A stretch of DNA of 27,429 nucleotides, taken from a virus. The stretch covers positions 1 through 27,429 of IMG/VR virus record IMGVR_UViG_3300028196_002454; one strand, 5' to 3'. The position numbers and the translations under genes are program-made. Numbering within the stretch: the stretch's first letter is position 1; each line of letters opens with the position of its first letter. Below are positions 379-17,580 of the stretch, in pieces. The notes beneath the pieces are model-generated. The model was not told the DNA's origin. It searched no databases and saw nothing but the letters and a program-made list of their open reading frames with translations.

Positions 379-1917
379 TTAATCATTTAAGTCAAAAATA
401 TAAAGAAATTTATTTTTTTTGTTAACGCACCATACTACGTTTTGCTTTCGTGGTTCATAATTATCAGGTATTTTTTGATCAGATACTAGTGTATTCGCTT
501 TTTTAATATCGCTAAATTGCCTATCTACACCAGAAAGTTTAATATTACCCCAAGTTTGTGGCGAAACATAGAAGCATATCCAAGCTTGATTTGAACCTAC
601 TGGGCCAAAACCATCTCCGGGCTTGTCAATTAATGGGACTGTTTTTGTTGAATTATTTTGAGGATTTACTTTTCTCATATAGTAATTAGGAATTCGTGTC
701 TTCTTATAGGTTATGTATTCACCTGCAGATGAGGCATTCCATGGGAATTTTAAAGCAGCATTTTTATCAAAAACAAATGTTTTATATCCGGATTCCATTT
801 TGAGCGCTTTCTGTGAATTTTTCTTGCCATGGGCTGTTATCTTTTCTACCATTTTTACGCCGAGATCTTTAGTTTCTTTTAAAGCTTGTTCTCTTTTAAT
901 TTTTTCTTGTCTTTCCTTTTCGAGTCGTTCTGCCTCTTCAGGTGTCTCTTCAGGATTTGGATTCTGATTTTTTCCTCTTTGATATTCATTAAGTTTTGTT
1001 AAGACATAAATAAGTTTTCCATAAGGTTTTTTACTTGTTCCTTTTTTAAAATCTTCTGATCCTGCTCCTTCAGCCACTACACCTTTAGTTAGCTTAAGTA
1101 CTGCAGATGACCATCTTCCGGCGCCTCCTGCTTTTTTTGTATTTAGACCACTAGCTGTTATTACTTTAAATCCGGATTTATTTCTTAAGTCAGCCTGTGT
1201 GAAAAGAGAAAGAGCTTTAGAGGTAGCAGATCTTGTTCTACTTCCCCACTTACCATCTTCATCTAATTTTTTACTTTGATAATCTCCGTTTATTGTTCCT
1301 GCAGTTGTTGCTACATTTAACAATTTTTGAATTTTTTCAATTAATCTATTAGGACTTGCTTTCTTTTTGATCTTCTTTTTAGGTTTTGTTTCTTTCTCGA
1401 CTTTTTTTACAGTGCTGGTGGCAGAAGGATTAGTACTTTTTTCTCCTTCACCTGATTCTGGATTGGGTTCTTTTTTACTTGGAGTATTGTCAACTTTAAG
1501 TTGGTTTTGCATATTCTTATATGCGTAAGCTTCAGCATCTTTAGGTGAGGTTTTTGGTTCATCTTTAACAATTTTATTGTAATATTTCAAATACAATTCT
1601 AATGCATCAATATTAAGACTGAAATCATTTCCTTTGCGCAAATCTATTACTGATAGATCAAATCCTTTTTTTCTTAATTTTTCTAAAGTGTTTGGTATTT
1701 GTCCATCTGCGCCTTGCTTTTCAGATTTTCCCAGGGCTTTTTGATATATAGGATTCCCTGTTCCGATGTCCCGACCACCAGCATGATTTCTAATTATCTT
1801 TTCTATTTTAGCGTTTGTAGATAAAGATGTTTTAAACCCTTTAGGTTTATTTTCTGTTTTTTCGTGAAGTAAATGTTTTCTAATTATACTTCTAACGACT
1901 GATTCGTTTACCAACAT
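379..1917 (-). CDS. Probable virion protein with N-terminal LLxE element and peptidoglycan-binding-like module
   Basis: A 512-aa protein without a firm family. It begins MLVNESVVRSIIRKHLLHE, a basic amphipathic helix ending in LLHE that resembles the start of the 655-aa protein at 4875 (LNENTLRTI... ILLEE). A Lys/Glu/Pro/Ser-rich low-complexity linker fills about residues 120-190. Residues about 190-280 (LIEKIQKLLN ... DGKWGSRT ... GAGRWSSAV) match in pattern a stretch of the 655-aa protein and look like a divergent peptidoglycan-binding domain, in which DGxWGxxT is typical. The next 40-60 residues are charged and probably coiled coil; the C-terminal 150 residues (YKTFVFDKNAALKFPW and onward) are unrecognised. 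An AAGGG Shine-Dalgarno lies about 10 bases before the ATG, and a TATAAT box (minus strand, near 1950) may be its promoter. It ends in the terminator at 322-354. A structural or entry role is inference. Confidence 0.75.
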   Translation of the reverse strand: MLVNESVVRSIIRKHLLHEKTENKPKGFKTSLSTNAKIEKIIRNHAGGRDIGTGNPIYQKALGKSEKQGADGQIPNTLEKLRKKGFDLSVIDLRKGNDFSLNIDALELYLKYYNKIVKDEPKTSPKDAEAYAYKNMQNQLKVDNTPSKKEPNPESGEGEKSTNPSATSTVKKVEKETKPKKKIKKKASPNRLIEKIQKLLNVATTAGTINGDYQSKKLDEDGKWGSRTRSATSKALSLFTQADLRNKSGFKVITASGLNTKKAGGAGRWSSAVLKLTKGVVAEGAGSEDFKKGTSKKPYGKLIYVLTKLNEYQRGKNQNPNPEETPEEAERLEKERQEKIKREQALKETKDLGVKMVEKITAHGKKNSQKALKMESGYKTFVFDKNAALKFPWNASSAGEYITYKKTRIPNYYMRKVNPQNNSTKTVPLIDKPGDGFGPVGSNQAWICFYVSPQTWGNIKLSGVDRQFSDIKKANTLVSDQKIPDNYEPRKQNVVWCVNKKNKFLYIFDLND

Positions 1918-1977
1918 AAATTATTGTCCCTTATAATGTTTAATTTTATTATACGATCTTAATTATGTCCTATATTG

Positions 1978-2478
1978 TTAATTTACATTAGTTAATGAAG
2001 GTTGCATTACATCATTTTTAGAAAAGTGAGAATGTGAATAACCTAAAGCATGTCCTAATTCGTGAACAATTAATTTGTGTGAATAGTTAGGTTGTGATTT
2101 TATTTTTTCTGGGTTGATTTCGCAGATTGCAGAAGCTATCAGGCTTTTATTTTTTGGAAACGTATATTTTACAGTCCATCCATTATATAGAGACGTGTCT
2201 AAGAATCTTGTGTCTTTTGTGATTAAAATGTCGCCTGTTTCTAAATAAGACCATTTTTTTTGACATTCATCTTGATGCTGACTTCTTACTTCGTTAAATT
2301 CGACTCCTTTTTCTTTCCATTCGTCAACAGCTTTTTGAACTTGAGATAAAGAAACAGGTGAATCTTTACATACAACAACGTTTGGAGGTGTTTCCCAAAT
2401 CTTTTCTTTTTTATACTTATCAATATGTATATCTAAAGCATGAGCACTTGATATTAAAGCTAGTAAACAAAAAAACAT
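1978..2478 (-). CDS. Secreted matrixin-like zinc metalloprotease (metzincin, M10-type)
   Basis: A 166-aa protein with a very short Sec signal (MFFCLLALISSAHA, cleavage predicted after AHA at residue 14) and a C-terminal metzincin zinc site, H139-E-L-G-H143-A-L-G-Y-S-H149 (HExxHxxGxxH). Met158 in the following DVMQPS fits the Met-turn. This defines a small matrixin or archaemetzincin-like endopeptidase that should act outside the cytoplasm. There is no recognisable pro-domain with a cysteine switch and no C-terminal targeting domain, so it is near the minimal catalytic size. The start is fixed by GGAG seven bases upstream and an in-frame stop just before. The minus strand carries TATAAATA about 28 bases before the ATG, which would suit a T4-type late promoter. 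It shares the leftward direction with the 512-aa gene. The substrate is unknown; host envelope or extracellular proteins are guesses. Confidence 0.82.
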   Translation of the reverse strand: MFFCLLALISSAHALDIHIDKYKKEKIWETPPNVVVCKDSPVSLSQVQKAVDEWKEKGVEFNEVRSQHQDECQKKWSYLETGDILITKDTRFLDTSLYNGWTVKYTFPKNKSLIASAICEINPEKIKSQPNYSHKLIVHELGHALGYSHSHFSKNDVMQPSLTNVN

Positions 2479-2505
2479 TTTAACTCCAAAATAAAATTAG
2501 TTGAA

Positions 2506-2513
2506 TATTTATA
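2506..2513 (-). promoter_or_regulatory. Possible T4-type late promoter (TATAAATA) for the matrixin gene
   Basis: The octamer TATAAATA reads on the minus strand and lies about 28 bases upstream of the matrixin ATG at 2478, a normal distance for a T4-like late promoter. The same octamer is expected about a dozen times by chance in a window this AT-rich, so only its position supports it. Confidence 0.25.
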
Positions 2514-2552
2514 TTAATATTATAACAATTTTAATTAAAACTTGCACGCGCT

Positions 2553-2876
2553 ATGAGCTTTTCAAATTATAAAAAAATCAAAACAAATATTAGAGGCCGG
2601 TCGGGAATATATTCTTTGTGGGTAGCTGATACATTTAAGAAACGACACTTAGGTTTATCTAAAATAAAAAAATTGTCTAAAAATTCAGGAATGATATTTG
2701 TTTATGAAAACGATGAGCCAAGAAGTTTTACAATGAAAAATACATTTATTCCACTGCAGATAATATTTCTTGATCGTGATTTTAATGTTGTGTATCAAGA
2801 AATTGGTATGCCTAAGCAGTCCAGGGCTATTATTTGTAAAGAGAAATGTAGATACGTTGTAGAAATTTCAGGTTAA
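2553..2876 (+). CDS. DUF192 family protein
   Basis: A 107-aa protein matching DUF192 along most of its length: an early LWVADTFKKRHLGLS segment (family pattern A-T-x-x-x-R-x-x-GL), then SGMIFVYENDEPRSFTMKNT followed by FIPLQIIFLD (family pattern GMlFvf...FwMknT.iPLDiiFid), and a closing YVVEISG. Many bacterial DUF192 proteins are exported; this one has no signal peptide and stays cytoplasmic or virion-bound. The molecular function of the family is not established. It is the first gene of the rightward run to 8420, divergent from the matrixin gene across 74 bases. No clear Shine-Dalgarno precedes the ATG (the bases before it are GC-rich, gcacgcgct), so initiation may be weak. The next gene starts two bases after its stop. 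Confidence 0.85.
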   Translation: MSFSNYKKIKTNIRGRSGIYSLWVADTFKKRHLGLSKIKKLSKNSGMIFVYENDEPRSFTMKNTFIPLQIIFLDRDFNVVYQEIGMPKQSRAIICKEKCRYVVEISG

Positions 2877-2878
2877 AA

Positions 2879-3109
2879 TTGGTTAATATAAAAATTGGTG
2901 ACATTGTAACTTTTAAAATAATTAGAAAAATCAACATTAGTGATTTAATTGCTAGAAAAGATTATTCTAAGTATATGTTAGTAGTTGATATCATATATAG
3001 TCATAAAGATTCGAGAAAACCGATGGCAGCATGTAAAGTTTTATGTGCAAACGGAGAAGTTAATTGGGTTTCTATAAATTCTGTAGAAAGAACGATACCG
3101 GTTACATAA
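2879..3109 (+). CDS. Small hypothetical protein, SH3-like beta fold suspected
   Basis: A 76-aa protein of unknown function. Its KIGDIVTFK opening, MLVVDIIYS middle strand and CKVLCANGEVNWVSINSVE ending alternate hydrophobic and polar residues, like a small SH3-like or KOW-like barrel. The reading starts at TTG (2879), two bases after the DUF192 stop. There is no ATG nearer than residue 33, and only a weak AGGT upstream, so translation is probably coupled to DUF192. Three cysteines are present, without a metal-site spacing I can defend. It lies between DUF192 and the block of probable virion proteins. Confidence 0.6.
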   Translation: MVNIKIGDIVTFKIIRKINISDLIARKDYSKYMLVVDIIYSHKDSRKPMAACKVLCANGEVNWVSINSVERTIPVT

Positions 3110-3144
3110 TTAAGATAGATAATTAATTAATAAGGAATTATGAC

Positions 3145-4113
3145 ATGGATAACATATACTCACATAAATCTAATGATTTATTGACAAAGATGATAATTGA
3201 TGCAGAAATTAAACTACTGAATGAAGGTATCTTGGATTTTTTTTTAGACAAAAATGATTCTTCTGTTAGAAAAAGACAAGCTGTCAATAAAATGAACACT
3301 GATCAAAAAAATAAAGAAAGGCAAAGACTTTATTACATTAATAAAGGTTTACCAATACCAGCTAGCTTTCATAAAGAAAAACTAAGAAAATATTATAAAA
3401 AAAACAAATTAGCAGTTCCAAAACATTTACAAGGCGCTGAAGATGAAGATACAGACCCGAGAGGCGAAGAAGCAGGTGTTAACAACCTTATATCATTTTT
3501 TGCAAAAAAGCTTAATATGCATCCCGGCCAAGAAAAGAAAATAAAGTCAGGTTTAGAATCAGCAGGTGGTGGTATAGCTACAGCAGGAAGCTTTCTCGCA
3601 GGTCTTTATAAAAAGTCAACTGGCAATGATTTTTTCCCAGGAGGAAAAGTTCCTCCCGTAGAAGAATTAACTGCTATTGCTTCAGATGAAAGCAATCTAA
3701 AAGATTTAGGTGATGACATGATAACCAGTTATACTTCAAGTAAAATTGCAGGTTTTCCCGGAAAACATAAAATGTTTTATTTGTTTATAAGTAATTTAGA
3801 AAATTTTATGTATTCATCTGGTCAAGAAAACACAGGAGACATTGAAGCTGATGCTATGGCTTTTATTAAAGGATATGTAGAAGAAGACGTTTTTGTTAAT
3901 GGAGCTTCTAATGTTATTGAAGAAAAATTTGCAATGAAAAAAAGAATACATTGGGAAAAAATTGCTAAATTCATTAAAACAGAAACTTCTAATGATAAGA
4001 CAGATTTAAAAGCTTTTAAATGTGGCCACTATTTTGTTGATAAATCTGGTGGTAAATTGCAATTAAAACCGATCGGATTGATACCGAATATTATAGAGGG
4101 AGAACTTAAATGA
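3145..4113 (+). CDS. Hypothetical protein, probable virion component (322 aa)
   Basis: A 322-aa protein I do not recognise. The N-terminus (MDNIYSHKSNDLLTKMIID, then AEIKLLNEG) is an amphipathic helix ending in LLNE, loosely like the LLxE ends of the 512- and 655-aa proteins. A very basic helix follows (about residues 50-95, many KK and YY pairs), then an acidic patch EDEDTD. Around residues 125-155 a Gly/Ala-rich segment (GLESAGGGIATAGSFLAGLY) could be a weak membrane-interacting helix. The rest is mixed. AAGGA eight bases before the ATG is a good ribosome site. The stop overlaps the next start as ATGA, so the two are translationally coupled. Position in a gapless operon with the 248- and 655-aa proteins and the zinc peptidase suggests an internal or ejected virion protein; this is inference. 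Confidence 0.65.
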   Translation: MDNIYSHKSNDLLTKMIIDAEIKLLNEGILDFFLDKNDSSVRKRQAVNKMNTDQKNKERQRLYYINKGLPIPASFHKEKLRKYYKKNKLAVPKHLQGAEDEDTDPRGEEAGVNNLISFFAKKLNMHPGQEKKIKSGLESAGGGIATAGSFLAGLYKKSTGNDFFPGGKVPPVEELTAIASDESNLKDLGDDMITSYTSSKIAGFPGKHKMFYLFISNLENFMYSSGQENTGDIEADAMAFIKGYVEEDVFVNGASNVIEEKFAMKKRIHWEKIAKFIKTETSNDKTDLKAFKCGHYFVDKSGGKLQLKPIGLIPNIIEGELK

Positions 4114-4856
4114 CTTTAACAAGAAAACAAACACGAAAATTATTGTTGCGAGAAATTAAAAAAGAACAAACTAAAAGAAAAAAATATGTTAAATTATGCG
4201 ATCACGTTTTAACCGAAAATAAAAAATTAATCGTTAATAAAAAATATTATACACAACAAGAAATTAACGAAGATATTATGTCAACTTTAATGTCAGCAGG
4301 AGGATCATTATTAGGAAACCTTCTTCCGGGACTAATATCAGATGTTAAGCAAAAAATAGCTACAACACTGCTTAGAAATTTAGGCCTAAATCCAAAAAGT
4401 AAGTTTGGCAGAATCGTGGTTAACGTTTTTGAAGAATTTCAGTATACAGAAATAATGGAATATTTTTCTGATTGGAAAACTGGTTGCCCTAAGTTTATTG
4501 ATACCTTTTTAAGAGCTCTATCTGACGCATTGATAGAAGGTTTAATCGAAGATTTTCTTGGTGCGCCTGGCGCGGATGAGCAATCAGGAATCGCAGGTAC
4601 TTTTAGAGAAACTTTAACAAAAACGCTTGATGATCAACTTATTCCTAAAATTGCTCCTAAAATTAGTAAATTTATTTGCAATATGAACATGGGCGGAATA
4701 ATAACAAAAATTAAAGATGTAGCTTCCGGAAAGACAACAATGAAAGACGCTTTTGCTGACATTGGTAAGAGTACAAGTAAGCCTGCTGATAAAGTTGCTG
4801 ACACAGCTGCTGACATAGCTGCAAAAAAACCTTCAGCTTTAGCTGGTAAATTTTAA
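4110..4856 (+). CDS. Hypothetical protein with basic N-terminus and hydrophobic glycine-rich segments (248 aa)
   Basis: A 248-aa protein not assigned to a family. The first 25 residues (MTLTRKQTRKLLLREIKKEQ and onward) form a strongly basic helix with LLLRE, comparable to the N-terminal elements of nearby proteins. A second LxE occurs in HVLTEN. Residues about 55-80 (IMSTLMSAGGSLLGNLLPGL) are hydrophobic and Gly/Ser-rich, and about 130-160 (FIDTFLRALSDALIEGLIED) form an amphipathic helix. The C-terminus is Ala/Lys/Asp-rich (DKVADTAADIAAKKPS), like an amphipathic tail. The start overlaps the preceding stop by four bases behind GAGGGAG, a strong Shine-Dalgarno. The mixture fits a membrane-active or internal virion protein, but that is inferred from composition and neighbours only. 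Confidence 0.65.
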   Translation: MTLTRKQTRKLLLREIKKEQTKRKKYVKLCDHVLTENKKLIVNKKYYTQQEINEDIMSTLMSAGGSLLGNLLPGLISDVKQKIATTLLRNLGLNPKSKFGRIVVNVFEEFQYTEIMEYFSDWKTGCPKFIDTFLRALSDALIEGLIEDFLGAPGADEQSGIAGTFRETLTKTLDDQLIPKIAPKISKFICNMNMGGIITKIKDVASGKTTMKDAFADIGKSTSKPADKVADTAADIAAKKPSALAGKF

Positions 4857-4874
4857 AATATTACTGGAGTATTT

Positions 4875-6842
4875 ATGAAAAAAACTGTATTGAATGAAAA
4901 TACATTAAGAACAATTGTAAATAAAGTTGTTAGAAAAAAAATATTACTTGAAGAAACCGAAAAGGTAGATCAAAAAAATGAAGAAGAAAAATCTAAACCT
5001 AAAGTTGAAGTTGAAGTTGAAGTTAAAAAAAATAAAGGTGCAGGAGCTGTACCCGATGTTGGTATTATCAAAGACGCTTTAATTGCAGGCGGAACAGATA
5101 AATTAGCACAACAAGAAACAAATAATATGCAAAGAGGAGGTGAATCATTAGTAGCAGGAGGGACAGCTGCAGCTATTGCGTACAGTGTGGTTTCTTATCT
5201 TGCAATGGGTACTGGCGTTGTTTTAGGTCCTACAGTTGGATTACCTCTTGCACTTGGGGCTGGCCTTTATTATGCTTTTAATTCTGACGCGATTGTAGGT
5301 TCAGACGCGGTTAAAGAAGCTTTGGACACATCACTTTATGATAGAATATCACAAGCTTTTAAACAAATTTATGATAAGTTTAATGATTCAAAAAGTCCTA
5401 AGGTGAAAGAAAATGCTCAATTTTTTAATCCTAACGTGTGTCTCAAACAAGGAATATTAACGCCAGAGGCACAATCATCTATTGCGCAAGAAATTTATGA
5501 TGCAACACAAGGTGGTTCCTTAGGATTAGGAATAGGAACAAATGAAGATGAAGTTAAAGCTGCTTTGAAAAAGTGCAAAACTTTTTTAGGGGTTTCACAA
5601 GTCTCCAAGCGTCATGCAAATAAATTTGCAGGTGGTATTATTGATGATGGTAATCTTTACAAAGTGTTAATAGGAGAATTTAATACTTCTGACTTTGATA
5701 CATATGTTTCTTCAGTTATTGAGACACTTCCTTTTATTTATATTGGAGACAAACCATATAGCCGATCAGAATTCGGATCTTGGATTGAAGAAACTAAGGC
5801 AATTGTAGATGATTTACCTAACAGGTATCCTGAGCCAAATCCTGAACAGGGAGAAGGGGAAGGTGATGTTGCTGATGATGTTGATAATTACGTTAAAGCA
5901 ATTCAAAAATTAATGAACGAGTATTGTGCAAACAAAGATTTGGAATACACCCCAATTAAGCCTGATGGTGTGTGGGGACCAAAGACTAACAAATTGTGGC
6001 TTAATCCATATCTTTCGCACGTATTGGAAAATCATCCTGACATCTCAAAATCAAATGTCACTATTTCTGGCAGAGGCAGGTGGTCAGATATATCTGCTCA
6101 GCTAATTGGAACATTCCCAGGTTATACTCCGGGAGAAAAAGGTTGTTATAGATTTTGCAAAGATGCAATATCTGGAAAAAGTTCATTAGGGCAAAAAAAA
6201 GGTGGAAACGATAATCCTATTAAATATTTTGGTGGAGGTTCACGTGGTGGCAGAAAAGACAATTCTAAACAAAAGGTAATCGATAATACTGAAGTTATAG
6301 GCGGTGCAGATAATAATCAATCAGTTGGAAACAAAAGAGCAAGGTCAGATGGTAGATTAGATTATAGAAACATATTTGTTAATGTCGAGTATCCAGGTGA
6401 AAATATGATAACATTAGATGAAGCTGGTTTAGGTAACGTTGAAGAATTTGCTAGGAAATTTATATCTGCTTTTAATTCAGATAGATTGAATGCAAAAGAT
6501 GAAGAAACAATTAAAATGCAAATATATCCTAAAAAAGATTTTTTCGATAATAAAAAAATAACCGGTGTAGGTGTAGGAAAAGTAGAAGGATCTAGGTGGT
6601 TTACAGGTTTTGGTATTAAAAATTTTAAAGGTATTTTTAGAAGACATTTCAACACCCAAGAAAGGTTAAAAACAATCAGTGATAAAGGTGTAGTTAATAA
6701 AAGAGATAAAAAACTGATTGTTTCTGTTACAATGCCTCAAGGTGTTTACACAGCAGCAACTAATAAATTAAATGAAGAAAAAATAAATAAAATTAAAAAA
6801 TTAATCAAAGAAATTAAAAATATTAAAAGAACAGTTTATTAA
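4875..6842 (+). CDS. Large probable virion/entry protein with LLxE N-terminus, hydrophobic hairpin and peptidoglycan-binding-like module
   Basis: A 655-aa protein. The N-terminus MKKTVLNENTLRTIVNKVV then RKKILLEE aligns with that of the 512-aa protein at 379-1917. A Glu/Lys/Val low-complexity stretch follows, partly coded by the GTTGAA repeat. Residues about 92-135 (two runs rich in A, G, V, L, Y, including SVVSYLAMGTGVVLGPTVG) could be one or two membrane helices. Residues about 340-440 (YVKAIQKLMN ... DGVWGPKT ... GRGRWSDIS) form a module shared with the 512-aa protein and resembling peptidoglycan-binding domains. The last 170 residues are a separate unrecognised domain with a Lys-rich tail. 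Membrane segments plus a wall-binding-like module fit a DNA-ejection or cell-entry protein. GGAG lies nine bases before the ATG. The next gene begins right after the stop. Confidence 0.7.
   Translation: MKKTVLNENTLRTIVNKVVRKKILLEETEKVDQKNEEEKSKPKVEVEVEVKKNKGAGAVPDVGIIKDALIAGGTDKLAQQETNNMQRGGESLVAGGTAAAIAYSVVSYLAMGTGVVLGPTVGLPLALGAGLYYAFNSDAIVGSDAVKEALDTSLYDRISQAFKQIYDKFNDSKSPKVKENAQFFNPNVCLKQGILTPEAQSSIAQEIYDATQGGSLGLGIGTNEDEVKAALKKCKTFLGVSQVSKRHANKFAGGIIDDGNLYKVLIGEFNTSDFDTYVSSVIETLPFIYIGDKPYSRSEFGSWIEETKAIVDDLPNRYPEPNPEQGEGEGDVADDVDNYVKAIQKLMNEYCANKDLEYTPIKPDGVWGPKTNKLWLNPYLSHVLENHPDISKSNVTISGRGRWSDISAQLIGTFPGYTPGEKGCYRFCKDAISGKSSLGQKKGGNDNPIKYFGGGSRGGRKDNSKQKVIDNTEVIGGADNNQSVGNKRARSDGRLDYRNIFVNVEYPGENMITLDEAGLGNVEEFARKFISAFNSDRLNAKDEETIKMQIYPKKDFFDNKKITGVGVGKVEGSRWFTGFGIKNFKGIFRRHFNTQERLKTISDKGVVNKRDKKLIVSVTMPQGVYTAATNKLNEEKINKIKKLIKEIKNIKRTVY
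5004..5024 (+). repeat. Short GTTGAA tandem repeat in the 655-aa gene
   Basis: Three and a half copies of GTTGAA encode the VEVEVEV run in the linker of the 655-aa protein. It lies in frame and in low-complexity sequence, so copy-number changes would be tolerated. Confidence 0.7.
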
Positions 6843-8420
6843 ATGAAATTATTTTTAAGTGATCAATTAGGTTACGATGAAGAAAAGGCTAGACTTTTGT
6901 CTGAATTTATTTTGTTTTGTGCACATGAATTGCCGATAGAAAATAACTTTGAAGTTCATGTAGTTTACAACAGAAAACCTCACGGTATTTCAACAACTGC
7001 TGTATACGAGTGTGGCAATAATGTTTGCAAGATATATGCAAAAAATAGAGCTTTTGTAGATGTTTTAAGATCAATAGCTCATGAAATGACGCATATGATG
7101 CAAGATGAAATGGGCCTTCTAGTAGGTCATATTCAGGACGCCGGAGGTTTTCATGAAGATCAAGCAAATTCAAAAGCAGGAGAGTTAATAAAACTATTTG
7201 CTAAAAGCAAAGAAGATCGCAAGGCAATATATGAATCATGTTATAATAATGCAATAAATAATTTACCAAGTTACAATAAGCTTTTTGAAGGTCCTGGTAA
7301 ATTAAATACTCAGTTTCAAGGAGCAGAAGTTAATTTTAACAATTACTATAGCGATTTAGAAGAAGGTGAAGCTATTAATCCGGATGCATCAGCTGTCATT
7401 AAAGGAAAATATTTTACTGTTCACGGGGTAAATTTCCAATCAGAGCCGGCTGAAGGTGCTGGAACAACTGCTTTTGAACTTTATAAAAGTGCTGAAAAAG
7501 CCGGACAGACTTCACCGAAGGTAAAAAGTTGGGAAGCAACGCCGGCTGGCAGAGATTGGGTATCAAAAAATATTTATGATGCATCAAAATCAGGTTCTGG
7601 TAAAACTTACGGTCCATTATTAGGCACATCTTCAGAATCATATTGGAGTAGCTGGTTTTTTTCTGTTGCTTATAAGGGATTCAAATCAGAGGACGGTGGA
7701 GGCTCTAATCATTTTGACTACGGCGCTGATGAGGGAATAAAAATAAGAAAAGATGTCTTAGAAAACCCGGATGCTTTTAAGAATAAAATAGTTTTTATGA
7801 CCTTTTCACCTAACGAAGCACCGCTTTACAAGGGAGACTCAGTTTTTGCACACAGAGCAGGTCAAAAAGGGAAAGGTTTCGGAGGTATATTACCTGTAGG
7901 TCCTGCGCATATGAGAATTCTAGTAGATGATGCAGGTACAGTTATGGGTGGTAATGAAAGTCAAAGAATAGGAAAGGGAAAAGTAAAGCTGTCAGGAAAT
8001 CGTTCTCTGATGCCTGGTCAAAAATATAGCGGAGAAGAATATTCTGCTGTTTATAAGCGTGTCAAAGTACTTGGGAAAAACATTCCAGAAGAAAAAGAAA
8101 AAAGCACAAATGTAAATAAAAATGAATTCTCAGGCATAGAATATTTTAATGTGTCGCCAGATAAACCTTTCAAACCGAAAGGAAAAACAAAAGAACAGAT
8201 AGGTGATGATGCTGCTAAATATAGTTACAGAAAGTACAAACAGTCTGGTAATAAAAATATTGTAATAGTTGCATGGGACAAAGGCAGTGGTAATGTAATC
8301 AAAGCCTTTAAGAAAGACATGAGTACAAATAATACATACGAATCTATCAGCGCAAAAGATATAAAGAACATAAAAGCTATAGACTCTAAATGGTCTTCTT
8401 ATTCAAAAGACAATGCTTAA
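6843..8420 (+). CDS. HExxH zinc metallopeptidase with a second hydrolase-like C-terminal region (525 aa)
   Basis: A 525-aa protein. The N-terminal 130 residues are a compact zinc-peptidase domain: H80-E-M-T-H84 within AHEMTHMMQDEMG, and a likely third ligand in FHEDQAN (E105, spaced as in gluzincins). A domain of this kind is common in phage proteins annotated as metallopeptidases. Residues about 255-375 form a second domain: YWSSWFFSVAYKG, a GDSVFAHRAG segment and AHMRILVDDAGTVMGGNES. These follow the order seen in DUF2272/CHAP-like cell-wall hydrolases (aromatic SxxF helix, GD turn, central His, GGN), but the usual catalytic Cys is not obvious, so that link is tentative. The tail is Lys-rich. 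It begins at the base after the preceding stop, with no Shine-Dalgarno of its own, so reinitiation is likely. It overlaps the convergent protease gene by four bases. Confidence 0.72.
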   Translation: MKLFLSDQLGYDEEKARLLSEFILFCAHELPIENNFEVHVVYNRKPHGISTTAVYECGNNVCKIYAKNRAFVDVLRSIAHEMTHMMQDEMGLLVGHIQDAGGFHEDQANSKAGELIKLFAKSKEDRKAIYESCYNNAINNLPSYNKLFEGPGKLNTQFQGAEVNFNNYYSDLEEGEAINPDASAVIKGKYFTVHGVNFQSEPAEGAGTTAFELYKSAEKAGQTSPKVKSWEATPAGRDWVSKNIYDASKSGSGKTYGPLLGTSSESYWSSWFFSVAYKGFKSEDGGGSNHFDYGADEGIKIRKDVLENPDAFKNKIVFMTFSPNEAPLYKGDSVFAHRAGQKGKGFGGILPVGPAHMRILVDDAGTVMGGNESQRIGKGKVKLSGNRSLMPGQKYSGEEYSAVYKRVKVLGKNIPEEKEKSTNVNKNEFSGIEYFNVSPDKPFKPKGKTKEQIGDDAAKYSYRKYKQSGNKNIVIVAWDKGSGNVIKAFKKDMSTNNTYESISAKDIKNIKAIDSKWSSYSKDNA

Positions 8421-10304: not shown

Positions 10305-11153
10305 TTACTTTTTCTTTGATTTTGATTTCTTAACAACAGCCCAGGATTTTGAAGGATTAGCTGAATTTACACGTGCATGGGCCCACTGATGTGCGCTCAT
10401 TCCTTTTCTTGATCCGGAGCTGTAATAAGCTGCCAGACCCTTTCTATACTCAGCATAAACAGAACCTGGAGTCAGGCCTCTTTTCTTTGCTTTCTTCTTT
10501 AAGGTTTCTTTAGTCGCAGCACTTAAACCACCAGCTGAGGATTTCTTTTTCTTTTTAGTAGATTTCTTTCTTTTCTTGCGTTTTTTTCTTTCATCTAACA
10601 TTTCTACAAATGTATCTAATTCTCTTTTCTTTGTTTCTGATAAGTACATACCCGTATCGAACCTCTGTTTAGATATATATCCTTTCTTTTTCCTTTCAGC
10701 AGTTTCAGAATCATCTCGAGCCTTATAGTCTGCTTTTGTTAATTTTTTGCCTTTCTTAATTTTACTAGACAACCTTGCCATTGTATCACCTCTTCGAGTA
10801 CCTGATCTTGCTTTGTACTTTTTCCTTTGGTATTTGTTTGGGGCAGGTTTTTTAGATTTTCTTTTTTTCTTTCTACGTTTTTTTCTTTCATCTAATTCTT
10901 TAACAAAATTATCAATATTATTTAATTCTGAGACTTGTTTTTCATTTTTATCAATAACAGCGTCAGCTTCAGGATCTGTATAGAGGTAATCTTTTACTGG
11001 AATTGTTTCTTTGTTGTAAGTAAAATTTTCCTTACCATCTTTTTTTGCCAAAGCAGCTTTATATTCTTTTTTTTTATTTATTTCATCTTGTTCTTGTAAA
11101 TATTGTAAATTTTGTAGTAATCTATATCTGTCATCATTTAACATACTAATCAT
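10305..11153 (-). CDS. Highly basic lysine-rich protein with duplicated LDERKK motif and conserved C-terminal domain
   Basis: A 282-aa protein, extremely Lys/Arg-rich. Two copies of an element (FVKELDERKKRRKKKRKSKK and FVEMLDERKKRKKRKK), each an amphipathic acidic-basic helix followed by a polylysine run, lie about 100 residues apart. The last 75 residues form a more ordered domain: LSAATKETLKKKAKKRGLT, then GSVYAEYRKGLAAYYSSGSR and KGMSAHQWAHARVNS. I recall similar endings in marine phage proteins, but cannot check this. The composition suggests nucleic-acid or polyanion binding, perhaps packaged with DNA. The start chosen is the ATG at 11153, with TAAGG eight bases upstream; a second ATG lies three codons in. 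It is divergent from the yeaH operon and ends in the hairpin at 10231-10279. Function unknown. Confidence 0.7.
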   Translation of the reverse strand: MISMLNDDRYRLLQNLQYLQEQDEINKKKEYKAALAKKDGKENFTYNKETIPVKDYLYTDPEADAVIDKNEKQVSELNNIDNFVKELDERKKRRKKKRKSKKPAPNKYQRKKYKARSGTRRGDTMARLSSKIKKGKKLTKADYKARDDSETAERKKKGYISKQRFDTGMYLSETKKRELDTFVEMLDERKKRKKRKKSTKKKKKSSAGGLSAATKETLKKKAKKRGLTPGSVYAEYRKGLAAYYSSGSRKGMSAHQWAHARVNSANPSKSWAVVKKSKSKKK

Positions 11154-11229: not shown

Positions 11230-12402
11230 ATGTCTATATTTAAAAAACATAATACTAATGCTGATCGATCAGCATCTGATAGAAGACGTCATAAAGAAAA
11301 AATAGAAAAAGCAATCAAGGAAGGAATCCATGATATTGTTGCTGAAGAATCTATTATTGGACAGTCAGGAAAGAAGAAAATAAAAATACCTGTAAGAGGT
11401 ATAAAGGAGTATCAATTTGTTTTTGGAAAGAATCAAGGTAGTAAAGGCGTAGGTTCAGCACAGGGTCAAGACATTAAAAAAGGCCAAAAAATAAAAGAAG
11501 GCCAAAAACAAAAAGGAAAAGGTAACGGAAAGAAAGCTGGTAATGAAAAAGGTGAAGAGTTTTATGAAGTTGAATTAACCTTAGATGAATTAGCAAAATA
11601 CCTCTTTGATGATTTAAATTTACCTGATTTAGAAAAGAAATCTGATGCATCAGTATTAGCAGAAAAAATTAAAAGAAAAGGTTATAGAAGTAAAGGAATA
11701 AGAGCTAGACTTTCCAAAAAAGAAACTCTTAAAAATAAAATTAGACGTCAAAAACAAGCTGTTAAAAACAAAACTTGGGATCCTGAAAGTGACGAAAGGT
11801 TTACTTTCCATGATGATGATTTAAAATACAAACACATAGAAATTAAACATAAGCCAATAACAAATGCAGTTATATTTTTTGTGATGGACGTTTCAGGATC
11901 GATGGGAAAACAAAAGAAATTTCTTGCCAGGTCTTTTTTCTTTTTATTATATCAGTTTATTAGATACAGATACGAAAAAATAGACATTGTTTTTGTTGCA
12001 CACACAACAGAGGCTAAAGAAGTAAATGAAGATGATTTTTTCCAAAGAGGATCCTCAGGTGGCACATTCATTAGTACTGGCTTAGACAAGTCTTTAGAGA
12101 TTATTAATGAAAGATATAACCCTAACTCTTGGAATTTATATGCTTTCCATGGATCTGATGGTGAAAACTGGTCTGAAGATAATGAAAAAGCTAAAATGTC
12201 AATGCAAAAATTAATAGATATTTGCCAGCTAGCTGGTTACATACAAATCATACCTGACGGAGAAAAAGTTTATGGCACAGAAATGGCAAATGTCTTTTCT
12301 CCATTGGTAACAGACAACTTTAAAGTTTTAAAATTAGGAAAAAAAGAAGACATATGGCCTCAATTTTCTAAGCTTTTTGGAGGAAAATATGACCTCAAAT
12401 AA
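11230..12402 (+). CDS. yeaH: YeaH/YhbH family protein (DUF444, von Willebrand A-like)
   Basis: A 390-aa protein, the usual length of this family. It opens with a basic segment (NADRSASDRRRHKEKI) and IHDIVAEESIIG, followed by IPVRGIKEYQFVFG, all typical of YeaH/YhbH. A Gly/Lys/Gln-rich linker sits near residues 75-105. A von Willebrand A-like domain with the metal-site motif D220-V-S-G-S-M follows, then FVAHTTEAKEV, RGSSGGTFISTGL and YAFHGSDGENW, all strongly conserved in the family. In bacteria YeaH works with the kinase PrkA/YeaG and SpoVR in starvation, stationary-phase and sporulation responses; the mechanism is not settled. Here it is the first gene of the operon and overlaps spoVR by 14 bases. 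The presence of the family in a phage-like context is the notable point. Confidence 0.93.
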   Translation: MSIFKKHNTNADRSASDRRRHKEKIEKAIKEGIHDIVAEESIIGQSGKKKIKIPVRGIKEYQFVFGKNQGSKGVGSAQGQDIKKGQKIKEGQKQKGKGNGKKAGNEKGEEFYEVELTLDELAKYLFDDLNLPDLEKKSDASVLAEKIKRKGYRSKGIRARLSKKETLKNKIRRQKQAVKNKTWDPESDERFTFHDDDLKYKHIEIKHKPITNAVIFFVMDVSGSMGKQKKFLARSFFFLLYQFIRYRYEKIDIVFVAHTTEAKEVNEDDFFQRGSSGGTFISTGLDKSLEIINERYNPNSWNLYAFHGSDGENWSEDNEKAKMSMQKLIDICQLAGYIQIIPDGEKVYGTEMANVFSPLVTDNFKVLKLGKKEDIWPQFSKLFGGKYDLK

Positions 12403-13714
12403 CAATTATACAATTGATGATTTAAAAGTGTGGGATGATAAAATCTGCAGCATTGCCAAGAAATTTGGTTTAGATTGGTATCCTATAAATTATGAAATCT
12501 GTAATTATTATGAAATGATAGGACACATGTCCTATCATGGTATGCCAAGTCATTATAATCATTGGTCTTATGGTAAATCATTTGAAAGAACACATTTTAT
12601 GTATAATCAAGGCCAATCTGGTTTACCGTATGAGTTAATAATTAATTCTGATCCGTCTATAGCATATTTAATGTTGCAAAATGAATTTTTCCTTCAAATC
12701 CTTATTATGGCACATTGTGTCGGTCATTCAGACTTTTTTAAGAATAATAGGTGTTTTAAAGAAACAGATGCTAAAAACATGGTTTCTAAAATGAGAAATG
12801 CAAAAAAACGGATTCAAGGGTATGCTGAAAATCCTCTAATTGGCCAAGATAGAGTAGAAAACTTTCTTGATGATTTGCACGCCATACGTTTTCAAACACA
12901 AAGATATAACATTCCAAGAAAATCAAAATCAGAAATCTTGCAAGAAGAAATACAAAGGTATAACAGGATGAAAGATGAGGGTATACAATTAGACTATTCT
13001 AAATTAGAAGGAACTCTTTTAAGACCTGATCATGATATTCTTTCTTTTCTTTTAGAATATAAAAATAATTTAAAAACATGGCAAATGGATTTGATAGAAA
13101 TTGTTAGAGATGAAAGCTTTTATTTCATGCCTCAAATAAAAACAAAAATATTAAATGAAGGGTGGGCTTCTTTTTGGCATTATAAAATACTTCATGAATT
13201 AAATCTAACTGAAGATTTTCATGTTCCATTTATGAAAATGCACAATGCAGTAGTCAGACCTCACATCGGAGGAGTTAATCCTTATCATTTAGGTTTTTAT
13301 ATTTTTCAAAAACTTGAAAGAGAGTATGGTTTAGAAAAATGTTTTGAAGTTAGAGCTACTCATGACGATGTAGCAGCAATTAGGTTGTTTTTGGATGAAG
13401 ATGATTTTAGAGAATTAAACTTCTTTTCACATGAAAAACAAAAAAACGGAGATGTGTTAATATCTGAGGTAGCTGATCACGATGACTGGAAAGTGGTCAG
13501 AAGTGACTTGATTAAGAATACTGGTATAAATACTATCCCTCAAATTTACGTTGACAGGATTGAAAAACAGGGCGGCTTAGTTCTCAAACATGAGCATGAC
13601 GGTCGCGATTTAGAGATCCAATATGCGGAAAGAGTTGTTAAGCATATTGGAAATCTTTGGGGAAAAGAAGTTAAACTTTATACCATACTCGAAGATGAAA
13701 TATGGGAAGTTTGA
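12389..13714 (+). CDS. spoVR: SpoVR family protein
   Basis: A 441-aa protein belonging to the SpoVR/YcgB family. The N-terminal hallmark runs from FGLDWYPINYEICNYYEMIG through YHGMPSHYNHWSYGKSFE, PYELIINSDP and LIMAHCVGHSDFFKNN; the middle has EILQEEIQRYN, LLRPDHDILSFLLEY, MPQIKTKILNEGWASFWHY and HIGGVNPYHLGFYIF. The start is taken at the ATG 12389, not the in-frame TTG at 12377, because GGAGG at 12379-12383 is ideally placed six bases before that ATG. SpoVR was named for a spore-cortex defect in Bacillus, but the family is widespread in non-sporulating bacteria and goes with PrkA and YeaH. It overlaps yeaH by 14 bases, so translation is coupled. The C-terminus is followed one base later by the sulfotransferase start. 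Confidence 0.95.
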   Translation: MTSNNNYTIDDLKVWDDKICSIAKKFGLDWYPINYEICNYYEMIGHMSYHGMPSHYNHWSYGKSFERTHFMYNQGQSGLPYELIINSDPSIAYLMLQNEFFLQILIMAHCVGHSDFFKNNRCFKETDAKNMVSKMRNAKKRIQGYAENPLIGQDRVENFLDDLHAIRFQTQRYNIPRKSKSEILQEEIQRYNRMKDEGIQLDYSKLEGTLLRPDHDILSFLLEYKNNLKTWQMDLIEIVRDESFYFMPQIKTKILNEGWASFWHYKILHELNLTEDFHVPFMKMHNAVVRPHIGGVNPYHLGFYIFQKLEREYGLEKCFEVRATHDDVAAIRLFLDEDDFRELNFFSHEKQKNGDVLISEVADHDDWKVVRSDLIKNTGINTIPQIYVDRIEKQGGLVLKHEHDGRDLEIQYAERVVKHIGNLWGKEVKLYTILEDEIWEV

Positions 13715-13715
13715 A

Positions 13716-14351
13716 ATGAAAAAAATAATTTTTTGTATTGGTACTGGCCGTTGTGGATCTGCATCGCTTTCCTTTCTTTTGAATAGTCAGGAGTCTGCTT
13801 TAGTTACGCATGAACTTTTTCCAATTCTTCCTTGGTTAGAAGAATCAAAAATGACTCCGCATGCGGCAGAACTATTACAATTCAGAATATTTCAAATGTC
13901 ACACCAGTTACACAACTATGATATTGTAGGTGATTCAGGATCTTATTATCTCCCTTATTTAAAATATATTATTAAAACGTTTCAAGGTAACACCCAGTAC
14001 GATTTAAAAATTTTAGTCTTAAAAAGAGATAAAAATAAAACAGTTGATAGTTTTAAAACAAAGTTTAGTATACAAAACAATAATCCACTTCAAAATCATA
14101 GTGGCCTAAAAAATGAATGGGATAATTCTTTTCCGAAATATAACGATGTCTGGACGTTAACAGAATCAATAGAAAAATATTATGATGATTATTATAAATT
14201 AGCAGAAAAATTATCTGCCCAACACCCAGAAATAATTAAAATTTTCGATACAGAAACTTTAAATTCAGAAAAAAAACTTAAAATATTATTCAATCATTTA
14301 GGGATAAACGACCCAAGATTTATAAAAAATATAAGAAAAAATTCTGGATAA
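13716..14351 (+). CDS. PAPS-dependent sulfotransferase-like protein
   Basis: A 211-aa protein with sulfotransferase signatures: the 5'-phosphosulfate-binding loop IGTGRCGSASL (G9-L18) right at the N-terminus, preceded by a beta strand IIFCI, and the 3'-phosphate-binding strand-loop LVLKRDKNKTVDSF further on. Family members move sulfate from PAPS to sugars, lipids or proteins. The protein is short for the family (usually 250-300 aa), and the C-terminal part is poorly conserved. I start at the ATG 13716 because the loop must lie near the N-terminus and SpoVR stops at 13714; an ATG five codons earlier (13701) is possible. It interrupts the otherwise continuous yeaH-spoVR-prkA set. The acceptor is unknown; host surface glycans are a guess. 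Confidence 0.78.
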   Translation: MKKIIFCIGTGRCGSASLSFLLNSQESALVTHELFPILPWLEESKMTPHAAELLQFRIFQMSHQLHNYDIVGDSGSYYLPYLKYIIKTFQGNTQYDLKILVLKRDKNKTVDSFKTKFSIQNNNPLQNHSGLKNEWDNSFPKYNDVWTLTESIEKYYDDYYKLAEKLSAQHPEIIKIFDTETLNSEKKLKILFNHLGINDPRFIKNIRKNSG

Positions 14352-14408
14352 AAATTTTTAATCTACGTAATTTTTAAAAAAAATTAAACATAAACTGGTC
14401 TTATTGTA

Positions 14409-14414
14409 TATAAT
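14409..14414 (+). promoter_or_regulatory. Candidate -10 box upstream of prkA
   Basis: A TATAAT sits in the 90-base gap between the sulfotransferase and prkA, 27 bases before the ATG, with no convincing -35 (TTAAACA at about 18 bases). It suggests prkA may have its own promoter besides readthrough. Low confidence in such AT-rich sequence. Confidence 0.3.
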
Positions 14415-14441
14415 TAATCAAGAGATAAACAAAGAGGACAA

Positions 14442-16370
14442 ATGAGTAAATTTTTAGATTTGATTCAAAAGCAAAGAAGTAAGAAAAAGAAAGAAAAGTT
14501 CGAAGGTACATTTATTGAGTATCTTGAAATGATTAAAGAAGAACCCGAAAAAATAAAACTTGCGCATAAAAGACTTTACGAGTCAATATGTAATTTTGGA
14601 GTTGATACTGTTGATGTTGACTCTGACGTGTATAGAGATATTTATAATGGGGATAAAATCAGAACATATGATTATTTCAGAAAAGAATATTTTGGAATGG
14701 AATCAGTAATAAATAAATTAATGAGATTTTTAAAATCTGCAGCACATAAAGGAGAAGAGAGTAGGCAAGTACTCCTTTTAATGGGCCCGGTTGGAGCTGG
14801 TAAGTCTGCATTAATTGACGGTGTTAAAAGAGCACTCGAAGTCGCAGAGGATTATTATTACCTTGACGGTTGTCCAATTAGAGAAGAGCCTTTACATCTT
14901 TTACCAAGGAGCTTAAGAGCAGATTTTAAAGAAATATTAGGTGTACATATTGAAGGCGATTTATGTCCTGTGTGTCGTCATCGCTTAATGAACGAATATG
15001 ATGGAAAGTATGAAAATTTTAAAGTAAAACAAACAAGTTTTTCTCAACGTGGTAGAAGAGGCATTGCTGTAGTCCCACCAATGGATGCAAATTCTCAAGA
15101 TGTTAGTGTTCTTATTGGAACAGAGGACATATCAAAACTTGATCTCTATCCTGAAGATGATCCTCGAGTTTTATCTCTAAACGGCGCTTTTAACGTCGGC
15201 AATCGAGGTATTGTAGAATTTGTAGAGGTTTTTAAGAACGAGATTGAATTCCTGCACACAATGCTTACTGCCACCCAGGAAAAACGAGTTCCATCACCCG
15301 GTAAAAATGACATGATTTATTTCGATGGAGTAATCTTATCTCATTGTAACGAATCAGAATGGAATAGGTTTAAATCGGAACATACAAATGAAGCTATTTT
15401 AGATCGTGTATTAAAAATTGAAGTTCCTTATGTCTTAGAATTAGATCAGGAAATGAAAATTTATCAAAAAATGATTCATCGATCTGATTTTAGAAATGCT
15501 CATATTGCACCTCACACTCTCGCAGTAGCATCGATGTTTTCTGTTATGAGTCGTCTCAAACCTACAAACAAGTGTGATTTACTAACTAAAATGAAAATTT
15601 ATAATGGTGATGCTATTATAGAAAAAGGTAGGGTCAAAAAAGTCGATATTAGAGATCTTAAAGATGAAGCAAAACATGAAGGTATGGAAGGTATTTCAAC
15701 TCGATTTATCATGAAAGCATTAGACGCAGCTTTATCAGATTCTGATAAAGATATGATTACACCGATCAACGTGATTGATTCAATGATTAAGCAAGTTAAA
15801 GAACAAATTATTGATGAAGATACAAAAACACGTTATCTTGAAATATTGCAAAAAACAATTCGCGAAGAATATCTTTCAATACTTGAAACAGAAATTGCTA
15901 AAGCATTTATTACGGCTTACGAAGAACAGGCACAATCATTATTTGACTCATACCTTGACAATGCTGAAGGTTATACGACAAAAACAAAATTTAAGGACAA
16001 AATTACAAGAGAAGAAAGATCACCGGATGAAAAGTTCATGAGAGCAATCGAAGAACAGATTGGTGTCGTAGGGTCTGCAAGAGACGGTTTTAGGTCAGAT
16101 GTGACAGCTTATATGTTTTCTAAGCTAAGAAAGAAAGAAACTGTAGATTATAAATCATACGGTCCGTTAAAAGAAGCAATTGAAAATTATCTAATAATGT
16201 CAGTAAAAGATATATCAAGAATTGTTACAAAATCAAAGTCAAGAGATGATGATCAAAAAAAGAAGTACAATGAAATGGTAAAAACATTAATTGATGATTA
16301 TGATTATAATGAATATTCTGCAGAGGAAATAATAACTTATGCATCAAACAATCTCTGGAGAGACTCTTAA
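14442..16370 (+). CDS. prkA: PrkA serine protein kinase / AAA+ protein, CxxC-containing subtype
   Basis: A 642-aa full-length PrkA. Order: N-terminal helical segment (GTFIEYLEMI, then KLAHKRLYESI); AAA+ region with Walker A G115-PVGAGKS122 in LLLMGPVGAGKS; insert IEGDLCPVCRHRLMNEY with C175 and C178; QDVSVLIGTED; GIVEFVEVFKNEIEFLH; FDGVILSHCNESEW; DRVLKIEVPYVL; then PHTLAVASMFSVMSRLKP; and the C-terminal PrkA domain GMEGISTRFIMKALDAALSD. The CPVC insert is typical of PrkA from Bacillus and many deltaproteobacteria, and I do not recall it in E. coli YeaG. PrkA has been described as a serine kinase and, in Bacillus, as an ATP-dependent protease. AGAGGA precedes the ATG. It overlaps the next gene by 32 bases. 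Confidence 0.95.
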   Translation: MSKFLDLIQKQRSKKKKEKFEGTFIEYLEMIKEEPEKIKLAHKRLYESICNFGVDTVDVDSDVYRDIYNGDKIRTYDYFRKEYFGMESVINKLMRFLKSAAHKGEESRQVLLLMGPVGAGKSALIDGVKRALEVAEDYYYLDGCPIREEPLHLLPRSLRADFKEILGVHIEGDLCPVCRHRLMNEYDGKYENFKVKQTSFSQRGRRGIAVVPPMDANSQDVSVLIGTEDISKLDLYPEDDPRVLSLNGAFNVGNRGIVEFVEVFKNEIEFLHTMLTATQEKRVPSPGKNDMIYFDGVILSHCNESEWNRFKSEHTNEAILDRVLKIEVPYVLELDQEMKIYQKMIHRSDFRNAHIAPHTLAVASMFSVMSRLKPTNKCDLLTKMKIYNGDAIIEKGRVKKVDIRDLKDEAKHEGMEGISTRFIMKALDAALSDSDKDMITPINVIDSMIKQVKEQIIDEDTKTRYLEILQKTIREEYLSILETEIAKAFITAYEEQAQSLFDSYLDNAEGYTTKTKFKDKITREERSPDEKFMRAIEEQIGVVGSARDGFRSDVTAYMFSKLRKKETVDYKSYGPLKEAIENYLIMSVKDISRIVTKSKSRDDDQKKKYNEMVKTLIDDYDYNEYSAEEIITYASNNLWRDS

Positions 16371-17580
16371 AAAAACTAAAGTCTTTAATTATAATGACAT
16401 TAAAGGCTTTTTAGAAAATCAAGAGGAAATATTTTTAAAATTTAAAGAAAACTGTTTATATGATTCTCTTGATTTTCTAAAAAGCCAACATATTAATTAC
16501 TTTAATTTTGTCGATGATAAAAAAGAATATAAAGTTTTAAAACAGATTATTAAAAAAGAATATTACGATTTAGAAAAATTATATCCCTATTTGGGAGATT
16601 TTTTATTATCTATGATTTTGAATAAAAAATCAATTAAGCGAAAATACAAAACTTTTAAATTTAAAAAAAATCAAAAAAACAAATTTGTTAAAAGCTTAAA
16701 ATACGAAATCAATAAAAAGATAATAGAACTATTTTTTGACAAATTTTCTTTAGAATATTTTGTAAAAATAGATTTTAGAAAAAATCTTAACGAAGGATTT
16801 GTAATCAAAGAAAACAAAAATAACTTTGATTTGTTTTTTGAAAATGAATATTACGAAAAAGAAGAAACGATCTTTAATTACAAAGTAATTGTTTTAGATG
16901 GTGTAATACAAAACGTAAGTGAAATACACCATGTTTTACACGAATCAGCAGAAAATAAAACACCTTTTGTTGTGTTTTGTTACGGCACATCAGACGAAGT
17001 AAAACATAATATCATTACAAATAACAAAAAAGGAATCACTCAAGTATTCCCTATCTGCTTTAACTTTGATGAAGATTCTTTAAATGTTTTAAATGACTTA
17101 GCTGTTATGCATGATTGTGATTTAATATCAGCAAATAACGGTCAGAGTATATCAACAGAAGTCAGAAATCTAAAAACAAAAGGTAAAAAAATTACAATAT
17201 CAAAAAATTGTTTTTCATTTACACCTGTTTGTTCAGAATTAAAAATTAATGCACATAAATTATTTTTAGATAAAAGAATTAAAGAATGTAAAATCGATTC
17301 AAATAAAGATGTAATTATTAACCGTTATAAAAGATTATTTTCTAAAAGTGTAAAAGTAGTTTTACCGGAAGAACTTAAAATAAATTCTGATTTTATGAGA
17401 GAATTTGATTATATTTTTAAATTTATGTCTAATTTGAAATACGAAATGACAACTATTAAATCTTTTGGTAGTAAAAAAGATTTATATATACCTTTACATT
17501 TTTTAAAAATATTGAAAAATAAAGATAAGTCTCTAAAATATATTTTCAATAACGTTGAAAAAGTAATAATAGAAATTTAA
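16339..17580 (+). CDS. GroEL-apical-domain-like protein lacking the ATPase domain
   Basis: A 413-aa, very Lys/Asn/Phe-rich protein. Residues about 150-340 follow the GroEL apical-to-intermediate order: LNEGFVIKENKNNFDLFFEN (GroEL FDRGYLSPYFIN), YKVIVLDGVIQNVSEIHHVL (FILLADKKISNIREMLPVL), NKTPFVVFCYGTSDEV (GKPLLIIAEDVEGEA), ITNNKKGITQVFPI (VVNTMRGIVKVAAV), LNVLNDLAVMHDCDLIS (MLQDIATLTGGTVIS), GKKITISKN (AKRVVINKD), then LFLDKRIKECKID. The first 150 residues show no equatorial GDGTTT or GDGT-like ATPase motifs and nothing else recognisable; the end also lacks the second equatorial half. So it may bind non-native protein or the host chaperonin but cannot be a normal ATPase. The start overlaps prkA by 32 bases behind AGAGGA. 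The similarity is remote and was found by eye, so confidence in the fold is moderate. Confidence 0.62.
   Translation: MHQTISGETLKKTKVFNYNDIKGFLENQEEIFLKFKENCLYDSLDFLKSQHINYFNFVDDKKEYKVLKQIIKKEYYDLEKLYPYLGDFLLSMILNKKSIKRKYKTFKFKKNQKNKFVKSLKYEINKKIIELFFDKFSLEYFVKIDFRKNLNEGFVIKENKNNFDLFFENEYYEKEETIFNYKVIVLDGVIQNVSEIHHVLHESAENKTPFVVFCYGTSDEVKHNIITNNKKGITQVFPICFNFDEDSLNVLNDLAVMHDCDLISANNGQSISTEVRNLKTKGKKITISKNCFSFTPVCSELKINAHKLFLDKRIKECKIDSNKDVIINRYKRLFSKSVKVVLPEELKINSDFMREFDYIFKFMSNLKYEMTTIKSFGSKKDLYIPLHFLKILKNKDKSLKYIFNNVEKVIIEI

Follow-up and report, generated by a model that had tools for sequence, protein, structure and literature searches.

The question raised by this locus, a 27.4-kb fragment of an uncultured virus with 27 predicted proteins (the whole stretch is called the window below), is why several of its proteins begin with a similar N-terminal helix ending in an L-x-E-type motif. 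A preliminary description had aligned the N-termini of a 512-aa and a 655-aa protein, recognized looser versions on a 322-aa and a 248-aa protein, and proposed that the element may be a packaging or propeptide tag marking these four as the ejected set. Here we report an analysis of the element in the window and in related viruses, whose genome sequences indicate that one group of T4-type marine phages, large and for the most part uncultured, most likely marks dozens of proteins with dissimilar bodies in this way for loading into the head and for delivery to the bacterium along with the DNA.

Occurrence of the N-terminal element in related viruses

Relatives of the virus were reached only via a conserved gene of the window, that of its PrkA-type kinase, with which 32 related viral contigs were retrieved. 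Five of these are longer than 110 kb (G028, 267 kb; G031, 193 kb; G001, 136 kb; G015, 123 kb; G026, 114 kb), and their proteins repeatedly start like MKITKRQLRRIIKEEKAKLLREE. We trained a 17-residue profile on N-termini, using equal-size windows inside the same proteins as the null, and called a tag at a threshold passed by 0.2% of internal windows. In seven long genomes, namely the five listed above, the cultured Flavobacterium phage immuto and the 484-kb metagenomic phage LR756508, taken together with the window, 97 of 1961 proteins are tagged against 3.9 expected, a 25-fold excess over internal windows. In immuto, tags lie at positions 102294, 102880, 113188 and 123355 of NC_055915. Among random viral contigs (IMG/VR loci), none of 1002 proteins passes the threshold. 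The tag consensus, M(K/R)(I/L)(T/S)xxQLRxIIxEExxxLLxE, corresponds to a basic amphipathic helix of about 14-20 residues. A degenerate DNA pattern of the tag matched at least 120 viral stretches, as against only 8 stretches in 257 billion bases of bacterial assemblies, and two of the four bacterial assemblies matched also hold an S77 protease.

Many tags were observed in loci L243-L248, on contigs (NHDW01000006 and PBIO01000025) filed under Methylococcaceae and Halobacteriovorax assemblies that also contain an S77 protease; these are probably phage contigs binned into bacterial assemblies. Further N-terminal dialects are common to unrelated genes as well, such as MKLLREYIRxLLxE in G028 (205556-209145, locus L057) and FDLKKFLVENKLT in phage immuto (genes at NC_055915 positions 1803, 103806, 117631 and 118632).

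Tagged proteins of the window

The window proteins were scored with a profile trained without any of them and compared against internal windows. The N-termini of the 512-, 248- and 655-aa proteins gave p = 0.0032, 0.0010 and 0.0010, respectively (window scores 15.9-22.4), these p-values being conservative since genuine tags inside proteins raise the null slightly, and none of the remaining proteins among the 27 predicted in the window fell below p 0.02. By this measure the earlier reading was right on three of its four proteins: the element shared by the 512- and 655-aa proteins is confirmed, and of the two looser versions the one on the 248-aa protein holds, while the 322-aa protein (p = 0.15 with the full matrix) was rejected as a tag carrier by its profile score and has only an LLNE↓G site (arrows stand directly after the glutamate of a site). 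The features of the window are listed in Table 1.

Table 1. Features of the 27.4-kb window considered in this study
Feature	Position	Strand	Observation
512-aa tagged protein	379-1917	-	ORF as earlier described; residues ~190-290 resemble a peptidoglycan-binding repeat (DGKWGSRT)
Tag of 512-aa protein, MLVNESVVRSIIRKHLLHE	1861..1917	-	Predicted cut after LHE (residue 19)
322-aa protein	3145-4113	+	ORF as earlier described
LLNE↓GILD of 322-aa protein	3178..3225	+	Residues 24-31; motif scan; no tag by profile
248-aa tagged protein	4110-4856	+	Family and position conserved across relatives
Tag of 248-aa protein, MTLTRKQTRKLLLREIKKE	4110..4166	+	LRE at residues 13-15
Second predicted cut site of 248-aa protein, INE	4263..4271	+	Residues 52-54; family alignment and motif scan
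655-aa tagged protein	4875-6842	+	Tag, one annexin-like repeat (5463-5810), peptidoglycan-binding-like stretch (~5871-6194)
Tag of 655-aa protein, MKKTVLNENTLRTIVNKVVRKKILLEE	4875..4955	+	Predicted cut after LLE (residue 26 or 27)
525-aa protein	6843-8420	+	Zincin fused to a second domain
282-aa basic protein	10305-11153	-	DUF5824-like (Pfam, 3e-5)
N-terminal helix of 282-aa protein	11091..11153	-	Ends in LQE (residue 21)
Phage-borne gene set	11230-16370	+	Includes YeaH/DUF444-like protein and PrkA-type kinase
PrkA-type kinase	14442-16370		Query for the search of relatives
413-aa protein	16339-17580	+	Partial match to phage GroEL-like chaperonins

The INE of the 248-aa protein aligns with a conserved INE↓G(I/L)MD at the point where the conserved body of its family begins, and the LLNE↓GILD of the 322-aa protein resembles this site. 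The pattern [LIV]xEG(I/L)(M/L)(D) is more frequent in tagged proteins (6 of 101) than in untagged ones (14 of 1738) but is too rare to carry weight by itself. Related N-termini were seen in the family alignment of the 655-aa protein. In the 282-aa protein, the N-terminal helix differs from the tag, and its relatives (phmmer family members) read ILkiILeDLqkLnE↓KKK.

None of the 512-, 322-, 248- and 655-aa proteins matched a Pfam or PHROG family above chance, and for the 512- and 655-aa proteins direct sequence searches found no relatives among named phages, nor did short-peptide searches in viral contigs. A peptidoglycan-binding-like motif is common to these two proteins. The annexin-like repeat of the 655-aa protein (residues 197-312) bears a GTDE signature and is conserved in loci L008, L001, L009 and L005; a five-sequence profile of the repeat matched annexin A7 at E 1.4e-4, and nearly all further matches were annexins. 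Annexins were also top-ranked by Foldseek, at E-values above 0.04, which are not significant. The structure model of the whole protein, with a low-confidence predicted helix at residues 8-38, is poor (mean pLDDT 50), so that nothing said here about this protein depends solely on the model.

Three observations concern the neighboring genes. The two parts of the 525-aa protein are encoded by separate genes in relatives (L024:5670-6167 and L008:3691-4653). The phage-borne set downstream also includes a protein that we read as SpoVR-like. The chaperonin match of the 413-aa protein is to phrog_5725 (1.5e-11).

The tag as a transferable module

When the tag is removed, clustering of 119 protein bodies gives 99 clusters among which no similarity is detectable; in G028, each of the 25 tagged proteins has a body unrelated to the others. 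The small zincin gene lacks a tag in most relatives and is tagged in L024. Together, these patterns identify the tag as a module, a short element at the very N-terminus of otherwise unrelated proteins, and not a domain inherited with the protein. Tags were also observed inside reading frames, mostly as a second copy (L057:2674-3354, L055:18207-18665, L025:453-1319, L086:18182-19564 and L011:5375-6430), which may mean that more than one tagged unit is synthesized within a single chain that is later cut apart.

For most tagged proteins no domain was recognized. Peptidoglycan hydrolases (VanY/M15, M23 and DUF2272) predominate among the remainder and could alternatively be ordinary endolysins; single matches were obtained to an HD domain and a dual-specificity phosphatase. 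The tagged protein at L025:453-1319 carries an HD_4 domain, a domain type found in ppGpp hydrolases. The tag would be hard to reconcile with a role in packaging if it were borne by enzymes made only early, and such enzymes were sought among 110 tagged proteins: the recognizable enzymes are mainly the peptidoglycan hydrolases, and the sole sign of a replication enzyme is a weak Rep_fac_C match. The median pI of tagged proteins is 5.0-5.8, as against the small basic internal proteins (IP) of T4, and the carriers are therefore not classified as IP homologues.

Predicted cleavage site at the end of the tag

In T4, the prohead protease gp21 cleaves after L/I-x-E, the targeting propeptides of internal proteins comprise 10-19 residues, and those of head proteins range from 7 to 65 residues (PMC9026906). 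An aspartate in place of the final glutamate is reported to leave loading intact in T4 while preventing the cut (PMC9026906). The tag described here ends in the same motif. In 120 non-redundant tags, positions 1-14 carry 1-3 bits of information, which drops to a background of about 0.1-0.3 after about position 18. An [LI]xE stands where conservation stops in 66 of the 120, compared with 31.6 +- 3.8 expected from shuffled columns (z 9.1), and none of the other pairings of spacing with residue type did as well (36 tested; the runner-up reached z 4.2). The result was reproduced in a hold-out set drawn from other viral contigs by means of a DNA pattern confined to the stretch of the tag that precedes the site: 100 of 146 new non-redundant tags have [LI]xE against 51.3 +- 4.0 expected (z 12.1), again the best of the pairings tried (42; runner-up 3.4). 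Alanine, glycine and serine are the commonest residues after the glutamate in this set. Across the first and the hold-out sets, a clear L/I-x-E within reach is missing from some 30-45% of tags.

Head protease, capsid protein and gene neighborhood

An S77 (gp21-type) prohead protease and a Gp23-type capsid protein are encoded by all five long relatives; no S77 match was obtained in the 27-kb fragment that forms the window. Among long contigs picked solely by the tag pattern, 15 of 16 encode an S77 protease, compared with 4 of 10 random long contigs, these controls being shorter than the tagged contigs. An (L/I/V)-x-E site near residue 60 is kept in the capsid proteins of all seven long genomes (e.g., VLRE↓A and LLRE↓A). 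Small tagged genes directly adjoin the gp21-type protease in G028, G001 and G015, a tagged 73-aa protein is encoded two genes upstream of the protease in immuto, and the capsid gene of LR756508 is flanked by tagged genes. Clustering of tagged genes was found in 4 of 6 genomes tested.

Discussion

On these observations, the tag most likely serves to guide its carriers into the core of the prohead, after which the S77 protease would cleave it off. In this reading, the basic amphipathic N-terminal helix would bind the assembling prohead core, so that its carriers become enclosed; the gp21-type protease would then cut after L/I-x-E, and the mature proteins thus set free within the head would presumably be ejected with the DNA. 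No virion proteomics for a tag-bearing phage, including immuto, was found in the literature. The original proposal of a packaging or propeptide tag is supported in part, by a shared, transferable N-terminal element that ends in a gp21-type site and by carrier phages whose prohead protease and capsid are of the T4 type. Its designation of the four proteins as the ejected set was too exact: relatives carry up to ~27-31 tagged proteins per genome, the case of the 322-aa protein is weak, and the 282-aa protein, with a family-conserved helix ending in L-x-E, is a further candidate.

The helix might instead dock proteins on the portal, neck, tail, baseplate or scaffold without being a removable propeptide, as the clustering of tagged genes near structural genes and the presence, on some bodies, of peptidoglycan hydrolase domains typical of tail or lysis proteins would suggest; however, docking predicts neither the specific enrichment of L/I-x-E, immediately behind which conservation drops, nor so many and such diverse bodies, and we regard it as unlikely. 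Slightly less probable still is binding to a common partner in the infected cell, such as the host polymerase, the membrane or a replication site, with no role in the virion. Many tagged proteins are indeed small, variable and without assigned function, like early host-takeover proteins, but the L/I-x-E enrichment, the co-occurrence of the tag with the S77 protease, the location of tagged genes inside the head gene cluster and the near absence of replication enzymes among the carriers all argue against such a partner. Chance similarity, or a tendency of N-termini in general to form basic amphipathic helices, would fit the modest scores of the window tags taken by themselves and the failure of the 322-aa protein, but it is very improbable given the excess over internal windows, the untagged random viral proteins and the distribution of the DNA pattern, and for the group as a whole the tests with internal windows, random contigs and the hold-out set rule out pure chance.

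Targeting propeptides as such are known, and the element is best read as a capsid-targeting propeptide that works like the CTS of T4 but is longer, helical and present on more carriers. Like the tag, the CTS of the T4 internal proteins IPI, IPII and IPIII is N-terminal, precedes diverse bodies and ends at L/I-x-E (PMC9026906, PMC3012670), in a phage with a gp21-type protease and a gp23 capsid. The T4 CTS comprises 10 residues (PMC9026906), whereas the tag is a basic amphipathic helix of ~18-22 residues with the consensus ITxxQLRxIIxEE; we do not claim common ancestry, 10 residues being too short for a statistical comparison. The two systems also differ in the much larger number of carriers per genome here and in the cargo, which is acidic to neutral and includes peptidoglycan hydrolases. 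In phage P1, an N-terminal packaging signal of 10-30 residues from DarB suffices to carry a foreign protein into the head, but no common sequence was found among the Dar proteins (PMC9024508), in contrast to the single consensus across dozens of proteins reported here. Head proteins of phiKZ and SPN3US, which belong to a different phage lineage, lose their propeptides to a gp21-like protease that cuts behind a short motif with a final E, and the parts of that account available to us describe no shared tag on many unrelated proteins (PMC9026906). The long helical form, spread over dozens of proteins per genome and a large uncultured group, was not found described in the searchable literature, which is weak evidence of absence.

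A broader reading, for and against which we see about equal odds, is that of a general cargo-loading system of large marine T4-type phages, in which one interchangeable, cleavable helix, existing in several dialects, brings at least 25 unrelated proteins per genome into the head for delivery with the DNA, the cargo including proteins that act on the cell envelope (peptidoglycan hydrolases and the annexin-like-repeat protein) and possible host regulators such as the HD-domain hydrolase. If the packaging interpretation is true, a sequence rule would point to the injected proteins of a large set of marine phages that are almost wholly uncharacterized. Ejection would become a testable prediction for dozens of proteins per genome now called hypothetical, and prohead protease sites could be predicted independently from sequence. 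Capsid targeting would then be much more extensive than in T4, and delivery studies in cultured relatives, Flavobacterium phage immuto among them, would gain a new packaging tag.
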